Part shown: positions 43,104 to 54,027 of the stretch, piece by piece
How positions within the stretch are numbered: position 1 is the stretch's first letter
Layout of the letters: each line of letters opens with the position of its first letter
Assembly: GCA_009773805.1 (NCBI GenBank)
Contig: WTXA01000002.1
Span: forward strand, 496,001-560,000
Source of the DNA: Fusobacteriota bacterium
Lineage (GTDB): Bacteria; Bacillota; TC1
DNA: 64,000 bases
Direction of reading: 5' to 3'
The notes under the pieces: model-generated
Database searches by the model: none
Seen by the model: the letters and a program-made list of their open reading frames with translations, nothing else
What the model was told of the DNA's origin: nothing
Position numbers and translations under genes: made by a program

Positions 43104-44603
43104 TTATTGATTTTGTCCAGCCATCATCATACCAATTCTAGTAATATCGAATTCCTCTTTTTCAAGGATTCCCATAATTCTACCCTCGTACATAACAGCA
43201 ATACGGTCAGCTAAAGTCAATACTTCATCTAATTCTGTAGAAACTAGAAGAACAGCGTTCCCTTTGTCTCTTTCAGCTACTAGACACTCGTGTACATATT
43301 CTGTAGCTCCGATGTCCAAACCACGAACAGGGTGAGCAGCAATACATAAATCTGGATCTCTTGATAATTCTCTTCCAAGAACCATCTTTTGTTGATTACC
43401 ACCAGACAACTTGCCACCAAGTTCTTGGATGTTAGGAGTCTTAACTTTAAATCTCTTAACAATTTCTTCAGAAGTTTCTTCTATGAATTTCCAGTTTAAG
43501 AAACCAAATTTTTGATAAGGCTCTTTGTAATAACTGATAAGAATCATATTTTCCTTAATGCTCATAGTTGAGACCATGCCTCTTTTATGTCTATCAGCAG
43601 GAATATGAGAAACCTTTTGCTCAAGAACTTGTCTTGGAGTAGCGTTAGTCATATCATTACCTTTGATAAAGATATGTCCTTGAGTTACTTTATCAAGACC
43701 TGTAATTGATTCAATTAAAGCATCTTGTCCATTACCATCTACGCCGGCAATACCTAAAATTTCACCTTTTCTAATATCAAGGCTTACATCATTTAATGCA
43801 CCGTGTATACCTTTAGTGAAAACATTCTCCATTTTAAGAACTGATTCACCTGGGTTGTAAGGACCTTTATCAACATTTAAGAATACTTTTCTACCAACCA
43901 TCATCTCAGCTAACTCTTCTCTAGTAGTACCAGCTGAAGGAACTGAAGGTTGAGACTTACCAAGTCTTAATACTGTAATAGTATCACAAATAGTAAGAAC
44001 CTCTTTTAACTTATGGCTGATAAAGATAATTGTTTTACCTTCTTCCTTAAGTTGTGTCATGATTTTGAATAGCTCTGTAACCTCTTGAGGAGTCAACACT
44101 GCTGTAGGCTCATCAAGAATAAGAAGCTCAGCTCCTCTGTAAATTGACTTTAAGATCTCAACTCTTTGTTGTTGACCAACTGTTAAATTTTCAATCAATT
44201 CATATGGATCTATTTTCATGCTATAACGAGCTCCTAAAGCAACAAAAGCTTCAGCATCGGTTTTCAAGTCCAAGACTTTTTTATTTTCAGGTCTACCAAG
44301 AATTACGTTCTCGATAACTGATAGTGCAGGAATCAACATAAAATGCTGATGCACCATTCCAATACCATGCTCGATAGCATGCTTTGGAGAAGTAATTTGT
44401 ATCTCTTGACCATTAAATAGAATTTGTCCACTTGATGGGGCATAGAGACCATAAAGAATATTCATCAATGTAGATTTACCAGCTCCATTTTCACCCATTA
44501 ATGCGTGAATAGAACCTTTTTCTACGGTTAAGTTAACATTGTCATTAGCAAGAACTCCTGGGAATTGTTTAACAATGTTCTTCATTTCTAAAATAGGTGC
44601 CAT
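43104..44603 (-). CDS. Nucleoside ABC importer, double ATP-binding protein
   Basis: 499 aa, two ABC domains. First: Walker A GENGAGKSTL, signature LTVGQQQRVEI, Walker B LLILDEPTAVLT. Second: degenerate Walker A GVDGNGQDAL, signature LSGGNQQKMVLGRE. This architecture with one degenerate site is typical of the NupO/YufO-type ATPases that pair with BMP lipoproteins. Powers uptake of nucleosides with the two permeases upstream on the same strand. Confidence 0.92.
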   Translation of the reverse strand: MAPILEMKNIVKQFPGVLANDNVNLTVEKGSIHALMGENGAGKSTLMNILYGLYAPSSGQILFNGQEIQITSPKHAIEHGIGMVHQHFMLIPALSVIENVILGRPENKKVLDLKTDAEAFVALGARYSMKIDPYELIENLTVGQQQRVEILKSIYRGAELLILDEPTAVLTPQEVTELFKIMTQLKEEGKTIIFISHKLKEVLTICDTITVLRLGKSQPSVPSAGTTREELAEMMVGRKVFLNVDKGPYNPGESVLKMENVFTKGIHGALNDVSLDIRKGEILGIAGVDGNGQDALIESITGLDKVTQGHIFIKGNDMTNATPRQVLEQKVSHIPADRHKRGMVSTMSIKENMILISYYKEPYQKFGFLNWKFIEETSEEIVKRFKVKTPNIQELGGKLSGGNQQKMVLGRELSRDPDLCIAAHPVRGLDIGATEYVHECLVAERDKGNAVLLVSTELDEVLTLADRIAVMYEGRIMGILEKEEFDITRIGMMMAGQNQ

Positions 44604-44621
44604 TATTATTCCTCCTCCCTA

Positions 44622-45686
44622 TTATTCTTTTGTATAAGGTACAGTAAGTGCTGCTGGTACATGGGTTTTACCTATGAAACCTGCTAATGCAACCACAGTA
44701 ACAACATAAGGAATCATGTTCATCAAGTCACTAGGGGCTTTTAAGCCAACTGCTTGAATCAAGTACTGTATTGCTTGAGCACCACCAAACACCAATGAAG
44801 CACCAAAGGCTCCAATTGGAGTATATTTACCGAAGATAACTGCAGCTACAGCAATAAAACCTTTTCCTGCAGTAACATTCTCAACGAAAGTTTTAATATC
44901 TAGTACTAATAACCCGCCTGCAAAACCTGTTAAAAGACCACTGAACAATACAGCTCCATAACGGATTTTGAAAACATTGATACCAGTAGTATCACACGCT
45001 TTTGGATATTCACCAACAGCTCTTACTTTTAATCCTAAATCAGTTTTGAATAAAACATAATTCAAGAAGAATATAAAGACGATACCAATATACATCATTA
45101 TATTTTGTGAAAATATAGTAGTTAAAAAGTTACCGATTACTGGAATTTGAGTCAAAGCCAACTCAGTTCCATTTGGAACTTCATTTGTTAATGCAGCACC
45201 AATTCCAGGGATTTTTGATAAAACATCAGAAATACTTGGGAAAGCATTCACTGTAATGTTCATAGTTTGAACAACCCTGTAAATAGTTGATGTTAAACCT
45301 AAAGCTAGAATATTTATTGAAATACCAATAACTGTTTGATTTGATCTTAAAGTAATTACCAAGAAACCAAATAGTAAAGCCATAATCAACGATGAACTCA
45401 TTCCAACTAAAATACCCAACCAAGGATTTCCGCCAAATAATGATGTTCCAATCCAAGTGAACAAAGCACCTGTTAACATCATTCCTTCAGCACCAAGATT
45501 CAAAATACCGGATCTTTGTTCATAAACCAAACCAGCAGCAGCTATTGCTAGTGGCAAGGCAATACGTAAATCTTGAGCGATAAAACTAGCTAAGGTATTT
45601 TTAATATTATCAGGAGCAAAAAATCCAACAGCCAATAAGACTACTAAGACTATTATACCTATAATTAAACCTTTTTTCTGTTTCAT
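44622..45686 (-). CDS. Nucleoside ABC importer permease (NupQ/YufQ-like)
   Basis: 354 aa, eight to ten membrane helices. Conserved EQRSGILNLGAEGMMLTGALF, then KVRAVGEYPKACDTTGINV and FGASLVFGGAQAIQYLIQA, as in BMP-type inner-membrane components. The gene lies 3 bases from the first permease and 18 bases from the ATPase. Confidence 0.92.
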   Translation of the reverse strand: MKQKKGLIIGIIVLVVLLAVGFFAPDNIKNTLASFIAQDLRIALPLAIAAAGLVYEQRSGILNLGAEGMMLTGALFTWIGTSLFGGNPWLGILVGMSSSLIMALLFGFLVITLRSNQTVIGISINILALGLTSTIYRVVQTMNITVNAFPSISDVLSKIPGIGAALTNEVPNGTELALTQIPVIGNFLTTIFSQNIMMYIGIVFIFFLNYVLFKTDLGLKVRAVGEYPKACDTTGINVFKIRYGAVLFSGLLTGFAGGLLVLDIKTFVENVTAGKGFIAVAAVIFGKYTPIGAFGASLVFGGAQAIQYLIQAVGLKAPSDLMNMIPYVVTVVALAGFIGKTHVPAALTVPYTKE

Positions 45687-45689
45687 ATC

Positions 45690-46729
45690 CTACTCCTCCT
45701 TCGGTGCTTTTGCTTGTCTAATTAATTTTCTTCTATTGTATTCATCTTGTACGAATACGCTAGCTACTACTAATATAATAACAAAAGCTTGAATAGCATT
45801 AACTATGTAAGGAGAAATCGTTCCTTTATTACCCATAGCTAAACCACCACTTTTAAGAACAGCGAATAAAATTGCTGATAGTCCCATTCCTAAAGGATGA
45901 AGCTGACCTAGTAAAGCTACAGCAACACCGTCAAAACCATAACCAGATGAGAAATCAGGTAGTATTCTTGATTGAGCGCTTAATAATTCGCTTACTCCAG
46001 CAAGTCCACCGAAACCACCAGCCATGAACATAGCCAACAATGCATTACTCTTAACTTTGATACCTGCATATTCTGCGGCTGTTGAGTTTAAACCAACAAC
46101 TCTCATTTCATAACCTTTCTTCATTTTGAAGAAGAAAATGAAATAGAAAACAAGTGCCAAAATAGCTAATACAATTGTAATTGTCATATCTGAATTTTGA
46201 ATAAAGAAACCTCTTTCGAAGCTAACTTTGAAAGCTTCAGATTGTGGATTTCCAGAGCCATCGTAAAAAGGACCGTCATATCCAATCAGATACTTGTTTA
46301 AAAATGAAGCTATATAGTTCAACATTACTGTTGTAATAACTTCATTTGCGCCAAAGGACACTTTAAGCCAACCTGCAATTAAGCCCCAAAGTCCTCCTGC
46401 AATAAAACCAGCTATGATAGCAAGTACTAATACTACAGCGCCACCAATTACTGGGATACCAAGACCAGGTGCATAAATCGCTACTAAACCAGCAGCAATA
46501 CCACCCAAATAAAATTGTCCTTCTGCTCCAATGTTCACCAAGCCACAACGGGAAGCAATAGCAAAAGCCAAAGCGGTAAAAGTCAAAGGTGCAACTCTCC
46601 CATGGCTAATCCAACATCTTTACCAAGCAATGCAATTAGAATCATACCTAATATTAATGCCACGCCCACTGCGACGATAGGTGTTAATACTTTAATCAGA
46701 ACATCTCCTGTTGAAAGTTTTTTCTTCAA
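45690..46729 (-). pseudogene. Nucleoside ABC importer permease 1 (NupP-like), frameshifted
   Basis: Translation from TTG 46729 (after AGAGGTGATG) reads LKKKLSTGDVLIKVLTPIVA ... GLAMGELHL then TGA at 46583-46585. The rest of the permease (TFTALAFAIASRCGLVNIGAEGQFYLGG to the C-terminus) is open in another frame from 46586. Relatives have roughly 30 residues between the first helix and this region, so a small non-triplet deletion near 46590-46610 has removed them. The C-terminal 298 aa look intact. Either the importer is inactive or this is an assembly error. Confidence 0.75.
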
Positions 46730-46925
46730 CCTACATCACCTCTTTATATTATTTAAAAAAAGAAAACATAATAATATGCCATGAAAGCACTTTAAATGCT
46801 AACAATTAAACATATTATATCAGAATAAGAATGATATTACTATATGTAAAATGAATAAAAATATCATTTAATCTGAATTAAATCTGTAGAAAAATTAATA
46901 TTATGTGTTGTTAATATGGATTATA

Positions 46926-46954
46926 TTGACAACATATGTTTTATTTGCTAACAT
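46926..46954 (+). promoter_or_regulatory. Promoter of the BMP lipoprotein gene
   Basis: TTGACA (46926-46931), 17 bases, TAACAT (46949-46954). The rest of the 297-base divergent space (46740-47036) is A+T-rich with no riboswitch fold that I can find. Confidence 0.55.
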
Positions 46955-47036
46955 GTACTCATTATGATACAGAAAAAAATAAATTAAAAAAACATGTATA
47001 TATAATAGAAGGAAATATCTTAACAAGGGGGCAATA

Positions 47037-48047
47037 ATGAAAAAAATAGTCTTAACGATATTGATGCTTTTCCTAAGCGTAATAATAGTTGGCTGCTTAG
47101 GAACAGCTAATAATGATAGTAATAGAGACCTAAAAGTCGCCTTAGTGCTAACAGGTGCTATTAATGACAAAGGCTGGAATCAAAAAGGTTATGAAGGGCT
47201 TGTAGTTATAGCAGCAGAATACAAAGCACAAACGGCCTACAACGAAAACACACAACCAGGGCAGTATAATCAAATAATAAGAACCTATGCCAAGGATGGT
47301 TATGAAGTAATAATTGCCCATGGAACACAATTCACTGATGCAGTAATAGAAGTAGCGGCAGAATACCCAGAGACAAAATTCTTAATATCAAGCTCAGATA
47401 GAAGTGCACAAATTGGGAACAATAAAAATATTGCCGGAGTATTAGCAGATGGTGTTGAACAAGGATTCCTACAAGGTGTAGCAGCAGGACATATAGCAGT
47501 AGAACAAGGTAGTAAAAAAGTAGGAGCTATAGGAGGAATTGAAATACCTGCAATAAAGACAACGGTAGACGGTTTTGCCGCAGGAGTAAAATATGTAGAT
47601 AGCTCCATACAAGTATTACAAGCCTACACAGGAAGCTTCGATGATGTGAACAAATTAAAAGAACAAGCAATAACTTTTATTCAACAAGGAGCTACTGTTG
47701 TAATGTCAACAGCAAATGCTGCTACTAAAGGTGGATTTGAAGCCACTAAAGATAAGAACGGTATTTCAATAGGTGCTAATTCTGATTCATTATTTGGAAC
47801 CTATAGCTTCAATCTAGCAGCTTCTGCAAATGTAGATATGTCCAAAGCACTGCTATTAGTTGTAGGGGAAATAGTTGAAGATAAATTTGAAGGCAAGAAT
47901 TACATTTACGGAATAAAAGAAGGAGTTGTAGCAATCTCATATAGTACAACTGAACCTTTAATTCAAAAAGTAAAAGCAAAAATTGATCAAGTTGTTGCTG
48001 AGATTATTAATGATAAACTAGATGTAAAAGATTATTACGGTAAATAA
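47037..48047 (+). CDS. BMP/PnrA-type nucleoside-binding lipoprotein
   Basis: 336 aa. Lipoprotein signal ILMLFLSVIIVGCLG with Cys21 as lipid site. Binding-protein motifs: LKVALVLTGAINDKGWNQKGYEGL, IIAHGTQFTDAV, VDGFAAGVKYV. It delivers nucleosides to the ABC importer encoded divergently. Followed by a strong terminator. Normally it heads the ATPase-permease operon; here it is separated and divergent. Confidence 0.92.
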   Translation: MKKIVLTILMLFLSVIIVGCLGTANNDSNRDLKVALVLTGAINDKGWNQKGYEGLVVIAAEYKAQTAYNENTQPGQYNQIIRTYAKDGYEVIIAHGTQFTDAVIEVAAEYPETKFLISSSDRSAQIGNNKNIAGVLADGVEQGFLQGVAAGHIAVEQGSKKVGAIGGIEIPAIKTTVDGFAAGVKYVDSSIQVLQAYTGSFDDVNKLKEQAITFIQQGATVVMSTANAATKGGFEATKDKNGISIGANSDSLFGTYSFNLAASANVDMSKALLLVVGEIVEDKFEGKNYIYGIKEGVVAISYSTTEPLIQKVKAKIDQVVAEIINDKLDVKDYYGK

Positions 48048-52461: not shown

Positions 52462-52980
52462 TTGAAGGGAGAGATGATGAGCTTCTTCAGAAAGCAAGAT
52501 GTGAAGTTCTTAATGTTTTTAAATAAAAGACTGCATAATAAAAATGTGCAGAGATTTTTTATTGCCTATACAGAGTTAGGCGGTGTGGTTTTTTATTCAA
52601 TCTTGATTTTCTATTTATTGTTAATAAACAGATCAATTGGAATTGAGTTGCTAGTAAATATCTTTATATCACAGTTTATTGTTCATAGTATCAAGTTTAT
52701 AATAAGCAGACCACGTCCATATGTTACTTATGAAGATGTTATAATTAGAAAGGCTTCAAAGGATATAAACTCTTTTCCATCAGCGCATACAGCTTCATCT
52801 CTAATGGCAGCCTTAACCTTTACCTCAATGTTTCCAGGATTTGGCTTCATACTTATACCAGCAGCATTTTTAGTTGGTATTTCTAGAATTTATCTTGGAT
52901 ATCACTATCCTAGTGATGTTTTAGGTAGTATGGCTATAACTTTAATTACTTTCCATATAATTGTTTTAATAAGATTTTAA
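52462..52980 (+). CDS. PAP2 superfamily membrane phosphatase
   Basis: 172 aa, six membrane segments. Catalytic motifs C1 KFIISRPRPYV, C2 SFPSAHTAS, C3 SRIYLGYHYPSDVLGS, all intact (K...RP, SxxH, SRxxxxxHxxxD). Acts on lipid phosphates such as undecaprenyl pyrophosphate or phosphatidic acid at the outer membrane face. GGGAG before the start; ATG 52462 and 52474 are both possible. Confidence 0.9.
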   Translation: MKGEMMSFFRKQDVKFLMFLNKRLHNKNVQRFFIAYTELGGVVFYSILIFYLLLINRSIGIELLVNIFISQFIVHSIKFIISRPRPYVTYEDVIIRKASKDINSFPSAHTASSLMAALTFTSMFPGFGFILIPAAFLVGISRIYLGYHYPSDVLGSMAITLITFHIIVLIRF

Positions 52981-52998: not shown

Positions 52999-53027
52999 TT
53001 GACTTAATTCGCTGGATGTTGTATTAT
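52999..53027 (+). promoter_or_regulatory. Promoter of the orphan riboswitch
   Basis: TTGACT (52999-53004), 17 bases, TATTAT (53022-53027). Starts transcription about 20 bases before the aptamer. Confidence 0.8.
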
Positions 53028-53055
53028 TCAGTTAGTAAAAATTAAATCATACCTA

Positions 53056-53115
53056 TTGTATATGTCGATGATATGGTTCGGCGTTTCTACAGGATCCGTA
53101 AATATCCTACTACAA
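53056..53115 (+). ncRNA. Purine riboswitch aptamer, guanine class
   Basis: All parts are present. P1 TTGTA/TACAA (53056-53060, 53111-53115), P2 GTCGA/TCGGC (53064-53068, 53078-53082) with loop containing GATATGG, J2/3 GTTTCTAC (53083-53090), P3 AGGAT/ATCCT (53091-53095, 53104-53108) with loop CCGTAAAT, and J3/1 AC. The C at 53110, just before the T that pairs with A60, is the position 74 residue that selects guanine or hypoxanthine over adenine. The L2-L3 kissing sequences are canonical. No sense gene follows. Confidence 0.93.
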
Positions 53116-53164
53116 GAACAATTCATATAATTTGAGTTGTTTTTGTAGCAGGATATTTCTTTTT
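53100..53164 (+). terminator. Riboswitch-controlled terminator
   Basis: AAATATCCT-CTACAA-G-AACAA (53100-53121) pairs with TTGTT-T-TTGTAG-AGGATATTT (53137-53158), about 21 bp with one mismatch and a G.U pair, then a T-run. Its 5' arm is the 3' strand of P3 plus J3/1 and P1, so the folded aptamer and the terminator exclude each other. Ligand should therefore prevent termination (ON switch). Confidence 0.88.
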
Positions 53165-54027
53165 GAAATATTTTTAAGGTATGTCACAGTCCAAATTGCA
53201 AAGGGAATAACCACTCGGCCATAAGTCCAGGCGGCAGCTAGAACTTGTACTCTTTCCTTTTCATTATGAAGTTCATGGAACATGCCAGGCCATTTAATAT
53301 ATTCAATATTTTCTTTGTTAGAACCAGCAAATTTTTCAATAGCTTTTAAATCAACTACATTATCAAGTTCTGCTGACATTAAAAGGGTAGGAGTTGTAAG
53401 TAGTTGTGGGTTGTTTGTAATGAATAAACCAGACACCATAATGCCTCTAGCCATGGTAGTGCAGATATAGTTATGGTACAAGCCAGAAGAATTAACCTCT
53501 TTTAGTAATTCTCTATCATGTGAAAGTGAACCAATCTTGGCTTTTATTTTAAAACTAGGACCCAGTACTTTTTCCATAATTTTCACTAAAAAAAGAGGAG
53601 TCTCCTTATACAACTTTAACCAAGGACTGGAAATCACACTACATGCTATATTGCCAGTATCTTTAGTCATTAAATATCTTAAAGCAATATTTCCACCCAT
53701 ACTGTGTCCATAAAGGACTATTGGCTTGTTTCCTTGTTCCTCGCGAATGATATTGAGGACTAATTCAATATCATTTAAGAAGGAAATATATGAATCTATA
53801 ACTCCTCTATTACCAGGTGTTAGTCCATGTCCTCTTTGATCATGGATATAGAAAGCAGCACCCTGCTCTGTAAAATACTCAGCTACCTTTCTATAACGCT
53901 CACCGAATTCTCCAAAACCGTGAATACCAAGGATGATAACTCTCGGTTCTATTGAATCAGGTTTATATATGTTAAGATTTAGTTCCTGTCCATCTGGTGC
54001 CAGTATTTTAATATTTTTATCCTTCAT
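53110..54027 (-). CDS. Alpha/beta hydrolase, monoacylglycerol lipase-like
   Basis: 305 aa. Oxyanion region GIHGFGEFGERYRKVAEYF, HDQRGHGLTPGNRG, nucleophile LYGHSMGGNIALRY, acid SAELDNVVD, and base MFHELHNEKER: the full Ser-Asp-His set of lysophospholipase/monoglyceride lipases. After HNEKER relatives soon end, but here about 45 more residues follow, of which the last 17 are read from the reverse strand of the riboswitch terminator. The tail therefore looks acquired. Confidence 0.85.
   Translation of the reverse strand: MKDKNIKILAPDGQELNLNIYKPDSIEPRVIILGIHGFGEFGERYRKVAEYFTEQGAAFYIHDQRGHGLTPGNRGVIDSYISFLNDIELVLNIIREEQGNKPIVLYGHSMGGNIALRYLMTKDTGNIACSVISSPWLKLYKETPLFLVKIMEKVLGPSFKIKAKIGSLSHDRELLKEVNSSGLYHNYICTTMARGIMVSGLFITNNPQLLTTPTLLMSAELDNVVDLKAIEKFAGSNKENIEYIKWPGMFHELHNEKERVQVLAAAWTYGRVVIPFAIWTVTYLKNISKRNILLQKQLKLYELFL

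Follow-up and report, generated by a model that had tools for sequence, protein, structure and literature searches.

Between a PAP2 family phosphatase gene and a convergent alpha/beta hydrolase gene, the + strand of the window (the whole 64,000-nucleotide stretch analyzed here, part of a 1.68-Mb genome, G000) carries a purine riboswitch with its own promoter and terminator (Table 1). In Infernal, positions 53036 to 53132 matched the Rfam purine model RF00167 at 61.1 bits against a gathering threshold of 37, with E-values of 3.9e-08 over the window and 2.4e-10 over the genome, and a whole-genome search with this model returned the match as the only purine aptamer. The loops are GATATGG and CCGTAAAT. 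A cytosine occupies position 74 (53110), and the J2/3 strand (53083 to 53090) follows the consensus GUUUCUAC, its letters being GTTTCTAC; among the genomes of the genus the sole departure is G003, with GTCTCTAC. C74 marks the guanine class (PMC11477304), and the pocket sequence suggests that the ligand would be guanine or a related purine. The promoter is sigma-70-like, and its TTGAC and -10 region are kept in all five genus genomes (G000 and four others, G001 to G004). An earlier, sequence-only reading of this DNA had described a complete purine aptamer with these loops, J2/3, and C74, together with a promoter of its own; the sequence and its conservation bear out both, and the covariance-model check that it called for scored above gathering rather than low.

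Table 1. Features of the riboswitch locus, in positions of the window
Feature	Position	Strand	Basis
PAP2 family phosphatase gene, upstream neighbor with conserved synteny	52462-52980	+	Pfam PAP2, 81.3 bits
Promoter, TTGACT-17-TATTAT	52999-53027	+	Consensus scan, 10/12 matches
Purine riboswitch aptamer, RF00167 model span	53036-53132	+	Infernal, 61.1 bits; also in 4 other genomes
Aptamer P1	53056-53060/53111-53115	+	
Aptamer P3	53091-53095/53104-53108	+	
T1, switch terminator (arms 53100-53128/53130-53158, T tract 53156-53164)	53100-53164	+	Inverted repeat, fold, paired changes
HP2, small hairpin ATATTTC/GAAATAT, available when T1 is unformed	53153-53171	+	Predicted folds
Conserved core AAGGTATGTCACAGTCCAAATTGCAAAG, the part of the small RNA proposed to be functional	53176-53203	+	89% invariant columns, 5 genomes
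T2 remnant, 5' arm and loop (3' arm and T tract deleted in G000)	53206-53226	+	
Alpha/beta hydrolase ORF, monoacylglycerol-lipase-like (true body ~53227-54027)	53110-54027	-	

No + strand open reading frame (ORF) of at least 80 amino acids lies between the riboswitch and dapF (54158), in agreement with the sequence-only reading. The same holds across the genus: in all five genomes no sense ORF of at least 80 amino acids follows for more than 1 kb, which does not fit a cis-acting leader of a purine gene. A search of 60 relatives found the aptamer in all four other genomes of the genus (60.9 to 65.9 bits against RF00167) and in the family's one other genus, and the order PAP2, aptamer, T1, hydrolase (on the - strand), dapF is identical in the five genus genomes. 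In the sister genus (G005), the sole aptamer lies in sense orientation after purB and before purL. At the other loci surveyed in the phylum, where some nearest ORF starts were picked mechanically, a sense ORF begins within ~390 nt, many being recognizable purine genes, and the gap to a sense ORF exceeds 1 kb only in the five members of the genus. One further candidate orphan in this survey (L016) was set aside once purE was found at approximately +306.

The riboswitch ends in an inverted repeat (53100 to 53158) followed by TTTCTTTTT. The predicted fold of the T1 region has an energy of -39.2 kcal/mol, with a z-score of -5.8 relative to shuffles, and across the genus there are stem pairs in which both sides have changed and pairing is kept. 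The P3 3' strand, J3/1, and the P1 3' strand together make up the T1 5' arm, so that both the terminator and the overlap with the aptamer are as the sequence-only reading had them. In the five genomes, the optimum fold, which contains T1, lies at -39 to -45 kcal/mol versus -21 to -24 kcal/mol with the aptamer enforced, a cost that makes the two states mutually exclusive. When the aptamer has just been completed, its fold is within ~1 kcal/mol of the optimum, and the ligand can therefore decide the outcome. A terminator whose 5' arm is built of aptamer 3' strands, with these energies in all five genomes, has the form of a transcriptional ON switch; the overlap and the energies support the read-through permitted by ligand that the sequence-only reading had predicted, and we infer from the model that the switch would work in this direction in vivo. 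The adenine riboswitch has been described with this ON design (PMC2258182), which has also been inferred for two others, xanthine-II and a nucleoside-hydrolase-associated variant (PMC9295807). The arrangement found here is like that of the pbuE adenine, xanthine-II, and nucleoside-hydrolase-associated switches in that the aptamer 3' strands form the terminator 5' arm (PMC2258182, PMC9295807). Those switches control coding genes, however, and the pocket here differs from theirs in being of the common guanine type (C74, GUUUCUAC). In Clostridioides difficile, all four guanine riboswitches are OFF switches (PMC11477304).

Conservation runs past T1, through the small hairpin HP2 and a 28-nt core, AAGGUAUGUCACAGUCCAAAUUGCAAAG, shared by the five genus genomes, to a second hairpin with a T tract (T2). 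In an alignment of these genomes, the fraction of invariant columns is 0.89 in the core, 0.77 in T1, 0.58 in the 5' part of the aptamer, 0.53 in the PAP2 gene, and 0.39 in the hydrolase gene; the core has 24 invariant columns, compared with 20 to 21 for the best 26-nt window in either coding sequence. G000 or G001 compared with G002 gives 28/30 identical positions at the core, while only about half of the positions match in the hydrolase coding sequence. Between G000 and G001, the linker is identical at 50/50 positions, compared with 78% identity for PAP2 and 66% for the hydrolase. HP2 was predicted in segment folds of G000, G001, G002, and G004, and its arms are present in all five sequences. 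T2 follows directly after the core and is complete in G001 to G004 (-13.7 to -18.5 kcal/mol plus the T tract); in the alignments, its stem in G002 shows one U-A to C-G double change. Four genomes thus carry the core with an intact T2, as expected of a riboswitch-regulated noncoding RNA, and G000 carries the core with half of T2. We found no second copy of the core in the genome, no copy outside the genus by an exact 19-mer search of 84,980 species or a 3-mismatch pattern search of 10 genomes of the class, and no match to Rfam families at a meaningful score. Folds of the released segment included a three-way junction, which we do not claim because this alternative fold was no stronger than those of shuffles.

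Because an aptamer without a gene precedes the same conserved noncoding stretch in five species, the locus probably encodes a small regulatory RNA that, to judge from the sequence, would be turned on when guanine is plentiful. We put the probability that it is a riboswitch-controlled small RNA gene, with a purine ON switch gating a trans-acting RNA of ~170 to 200 nt, at about two in three. The sequence-only reading had offered a guanine-triggered antisense RNA, a short regulatory RNA, and a leftover of a lost purine gene; the second is the best supported, since a 28-nt noncoding core and a second terminator are conserved past T1.

An alternative explanation for the conserved core could be that a protein binds it and that the RNA soaks up a regulator, in the way that EutX and Rli55 act as sponges for the ANTAR protein EutV. 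The architecture is the same (an aptamer, then a terminator, then a short conserved module), the core is predicted to be single stranded between two hairpins, and the search for mRNA targets gave none that was significant. The dual-hairpin ANTAR site, a pair of hexaloop hairpins bound by an ANTAR protein, is however not visible in the folds; a search for ANTAR domains gave no match in the genome, with the controls equally silent. On balance we regard a sponge as rather unlikely.

We also consider it unlikely that the locus makes, in response to guanine, a cis antisense RNA to the hydrolase gene, in the manner of AspocR and pocR in Listeria. That reading draws on G000, in which the hydrolase gene is convergent, T2 is gone, and a consensus scan found no + strand terminator downstream. 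Approximately 50 bp present in the four relatives, including the T2 3' arm and the hydrolase stop codon, is missing from this genome (window 53227 to 53230; G000:C2:549226), cutting T2 after AAGT (53226); the apparent deletion may be an assembly error. Loss of the stop codon fused the hydrolase ORF to the antisense of the RNA element, such that its last ~38 codons are read from the strand antisense to the core and T1. The orthologues end at 275 to 280 amino acids, and of the 305 residues encoded here the Pfam Hydrolase_4 domain extends to residue 258. By this comparison, the terminal 3' part of the lipase ORF (53110 to ~53226) is a deletion artifact. Since T2 is broken, the long form in G000 probably runs on into hydrolase antisense. 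In the other four genomes, by contrast, T2 (-13.7 to -18.5 kcal/mol plus a T tract) separates the switch from the hydrolase gene, which shows little conservation and no obvious function connected with purines. The proposal that read-through would run antisense across the whole lipase gene is therefore right in its geometry for G000 and fails for the genus, where transcription would end at T2 before the lipase.

It is improbable that the riboswitch is a decayed orphan which served a purine gene since lost and now drifts, even though the sense gene is absent, purine aptamers elsewhere precede genes, and G000 has a broken T2 and has lost the hydrolase stop; for G000 alone, decay is possible. Five species share the layout and have aptamers with the high scores given above, the T1 pairs are preserved through double changes, and the core is conserved above the coding sequences. 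The same arrangement in five species, with the sequence past T1 among the most conserved of the locus, argues that it is no relic and disfavors the leftover of a lost gene. Finally, it is very improbable that the core encodes a leader peptide or small protein (MSQSKL...) induced by guanine, for although the core ATG opens a frame of 6 to 14 codons in all five genomes, the frames stop differently (MSQSKL-stop in G002, MSQSKLQRK-stop in G003, and MSQSKLQRKITTRP-stop in G001 and G004) and AAGG lies one base from the ATG, leaving no spaced Shine-Dalgarno sequence, two features on which we rejected the core as a peptide, and all codon positions are equally conserved.

For the riboswitch-controlled small RNA, we propose the following mechanism. 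A transcript from the promoter at 52999 would start with the guanine-class purine aptamer. With no ligand, T1 would form and transcription would stop near 53164, leaving the aptamer RNA alone. Binding of guanine or a related purine would hold P1 and P3 together and block T1, and polymerase would read on through the 28-nt core to T2, ~60 nt further, giving an RNA of ~170 to 200 nt. The core would then act in trans, and pairing with mRNAs for the uptake or breakdown of purines is its most likely mode of action; alternatively, it may bind a protein, as in EutX. We offer more tentatively the full version of this model, in which a genus-wide, free-standing RNA gene without any gene in cis makes a guanine-induced RNA that would coordinate the uptake and breakdown of purines by base pairing in trans.

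Genes for XdhA, 8-oxoguanine deaminase, YgeY hydrolase, carbamate kinase, Xpt, and many PnrA-like lipoproteins are present in the genome. The uncultured host probably degrades purines, and it would be sensible for guanine to switch purine breakdown on. Two purine-breakdown-like clusters (G000:C1:464-480 kb and C2:848-861 kb) hold XdhA-type genes, amidohydrolases, YgeY, carbamoyltransferase, carbamate kinase, and BMP lipoproteins, and GrdA/GrdE/GrdX-like genes lie at C1:492-494 kb. Within the window, a PnrA/BMP-like lipoprotein gene and divergent nucleoside-type ABC transporter genes (43690 to 48047) lie ~5 to 9 kb upstream of the riboswitch; xpt and an 8-oxoguanine deaminase gene lie ~11 to 13 kb downstream of it, outside the window. 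None of these genes on either side carries a riboswitch of its own. In the divergent purE/guaB intergenic region (G000:C2:764465-764651), palindrome-like motifs, AAACGTATAC / AACGTATTC, are repeated and may form an operator at which a protein regulates purine synthesis.

Ranking of leaders in G000 by predicted duplex energy with the core placed purine genes at positions 3, 4, and 15 of 1,706, the first two (ranks 3 and 4) being the leaders of a PnrA-like lipoprotein gene and of the 8-oxoguanine deaminase gene. The lipoprotein site, UGUGACgaAUACCUU, lies ~60 nt upstream of the start of a gene that adjoins xanthine dehydrogenase genes; the deaminase site is ACUGUGAUACCUUA, in the leader of the gene ~11 kb away. 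Purine genes were not enriched among the predicted targets of the core, as 19% of shuffled cores did as well. The lipoprotein site is kept in G004, no better than the whole leader (80% identical), and the alignable part of the G002 leader begins after the site. Contiguous complementarity to the core across the genome showed no excess over shuffles, and among orthologous leader pairs of G000 and G001 the top core-pairing scores fell within the shuffle range. Given the lack of enrichment over shuffles, the unremarkable conservation of the lipoprotein site in G004, and its absence from the G002 alignment, we treat these targets as weak, nonsignificant leads. The carbamate kinase leader was rejected as a target, as its match stems from the leader's own hairpin (AAGGCATAC...GTGTGCCTT).

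The closest parallels are EutX of Enterococcus and Rli55 of Listeria, B12-riboswitch-regulated noncoding RNAs that act in trans, in which, as here, an aptamer and a terminator gate a noncoding module with no sense gene (PMC5821096, PMC8079631). Here, however, the aptamer is for purine rather than B12, no ANTAR site is visible, and the logic is opposite, in that ligand binding should give a longer RNA and not a shorter one. AspocR of Listeria and the SAM-I antisense riboswitch of Clostridium acetobutylicum likewise face the 3' end of a convergent gene and have no sense gene (PMC8079631, PMC2258182), but they are OFF switches of cis antisense RNAs, whereas T2 would end the RNA described here before the neighboring gene in four of five species. 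SreA, of the Listeria SAM riboswitches SreA/SreB, is a terminated product whose riboswitch also serves a cis operon (PMC8079631); our locus has no cis operon, and its conserved module sits in the read-through product. In C. difficile, c-di-GMP riboswitches precede antisense RNAs (PMC11477304).

Riboswitches that drive noncoding RNAs rather than genes are few, those found in the papers searched being the ones for B12 (EutX/Rli55 and AspocR), SAM (SreA and the C. acetobutylicum antisense RNA), and c-di-GMP (C. difficile), and in the open-access literature searched we found no purine riboswitch driving one. We conclude that the locus is real and conserved and that it probably represents a new form of riboswitch-regulated small RNA, a proposal that its conservation pattern makes directly testable. 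It was suggested in 2007 that orphan aptamers may control antisense RNAs acting in trans or may have become orphans only recently (PMC2258182); of these two possibilities, the first is favored by the conservation seen at this locus. If our reading is true, this genus would provide a case of orphan aptamers controlling trans-acting RNAs, in which an ON-logic purine aptamer lets one metabolite sensor act on many mRNAs.
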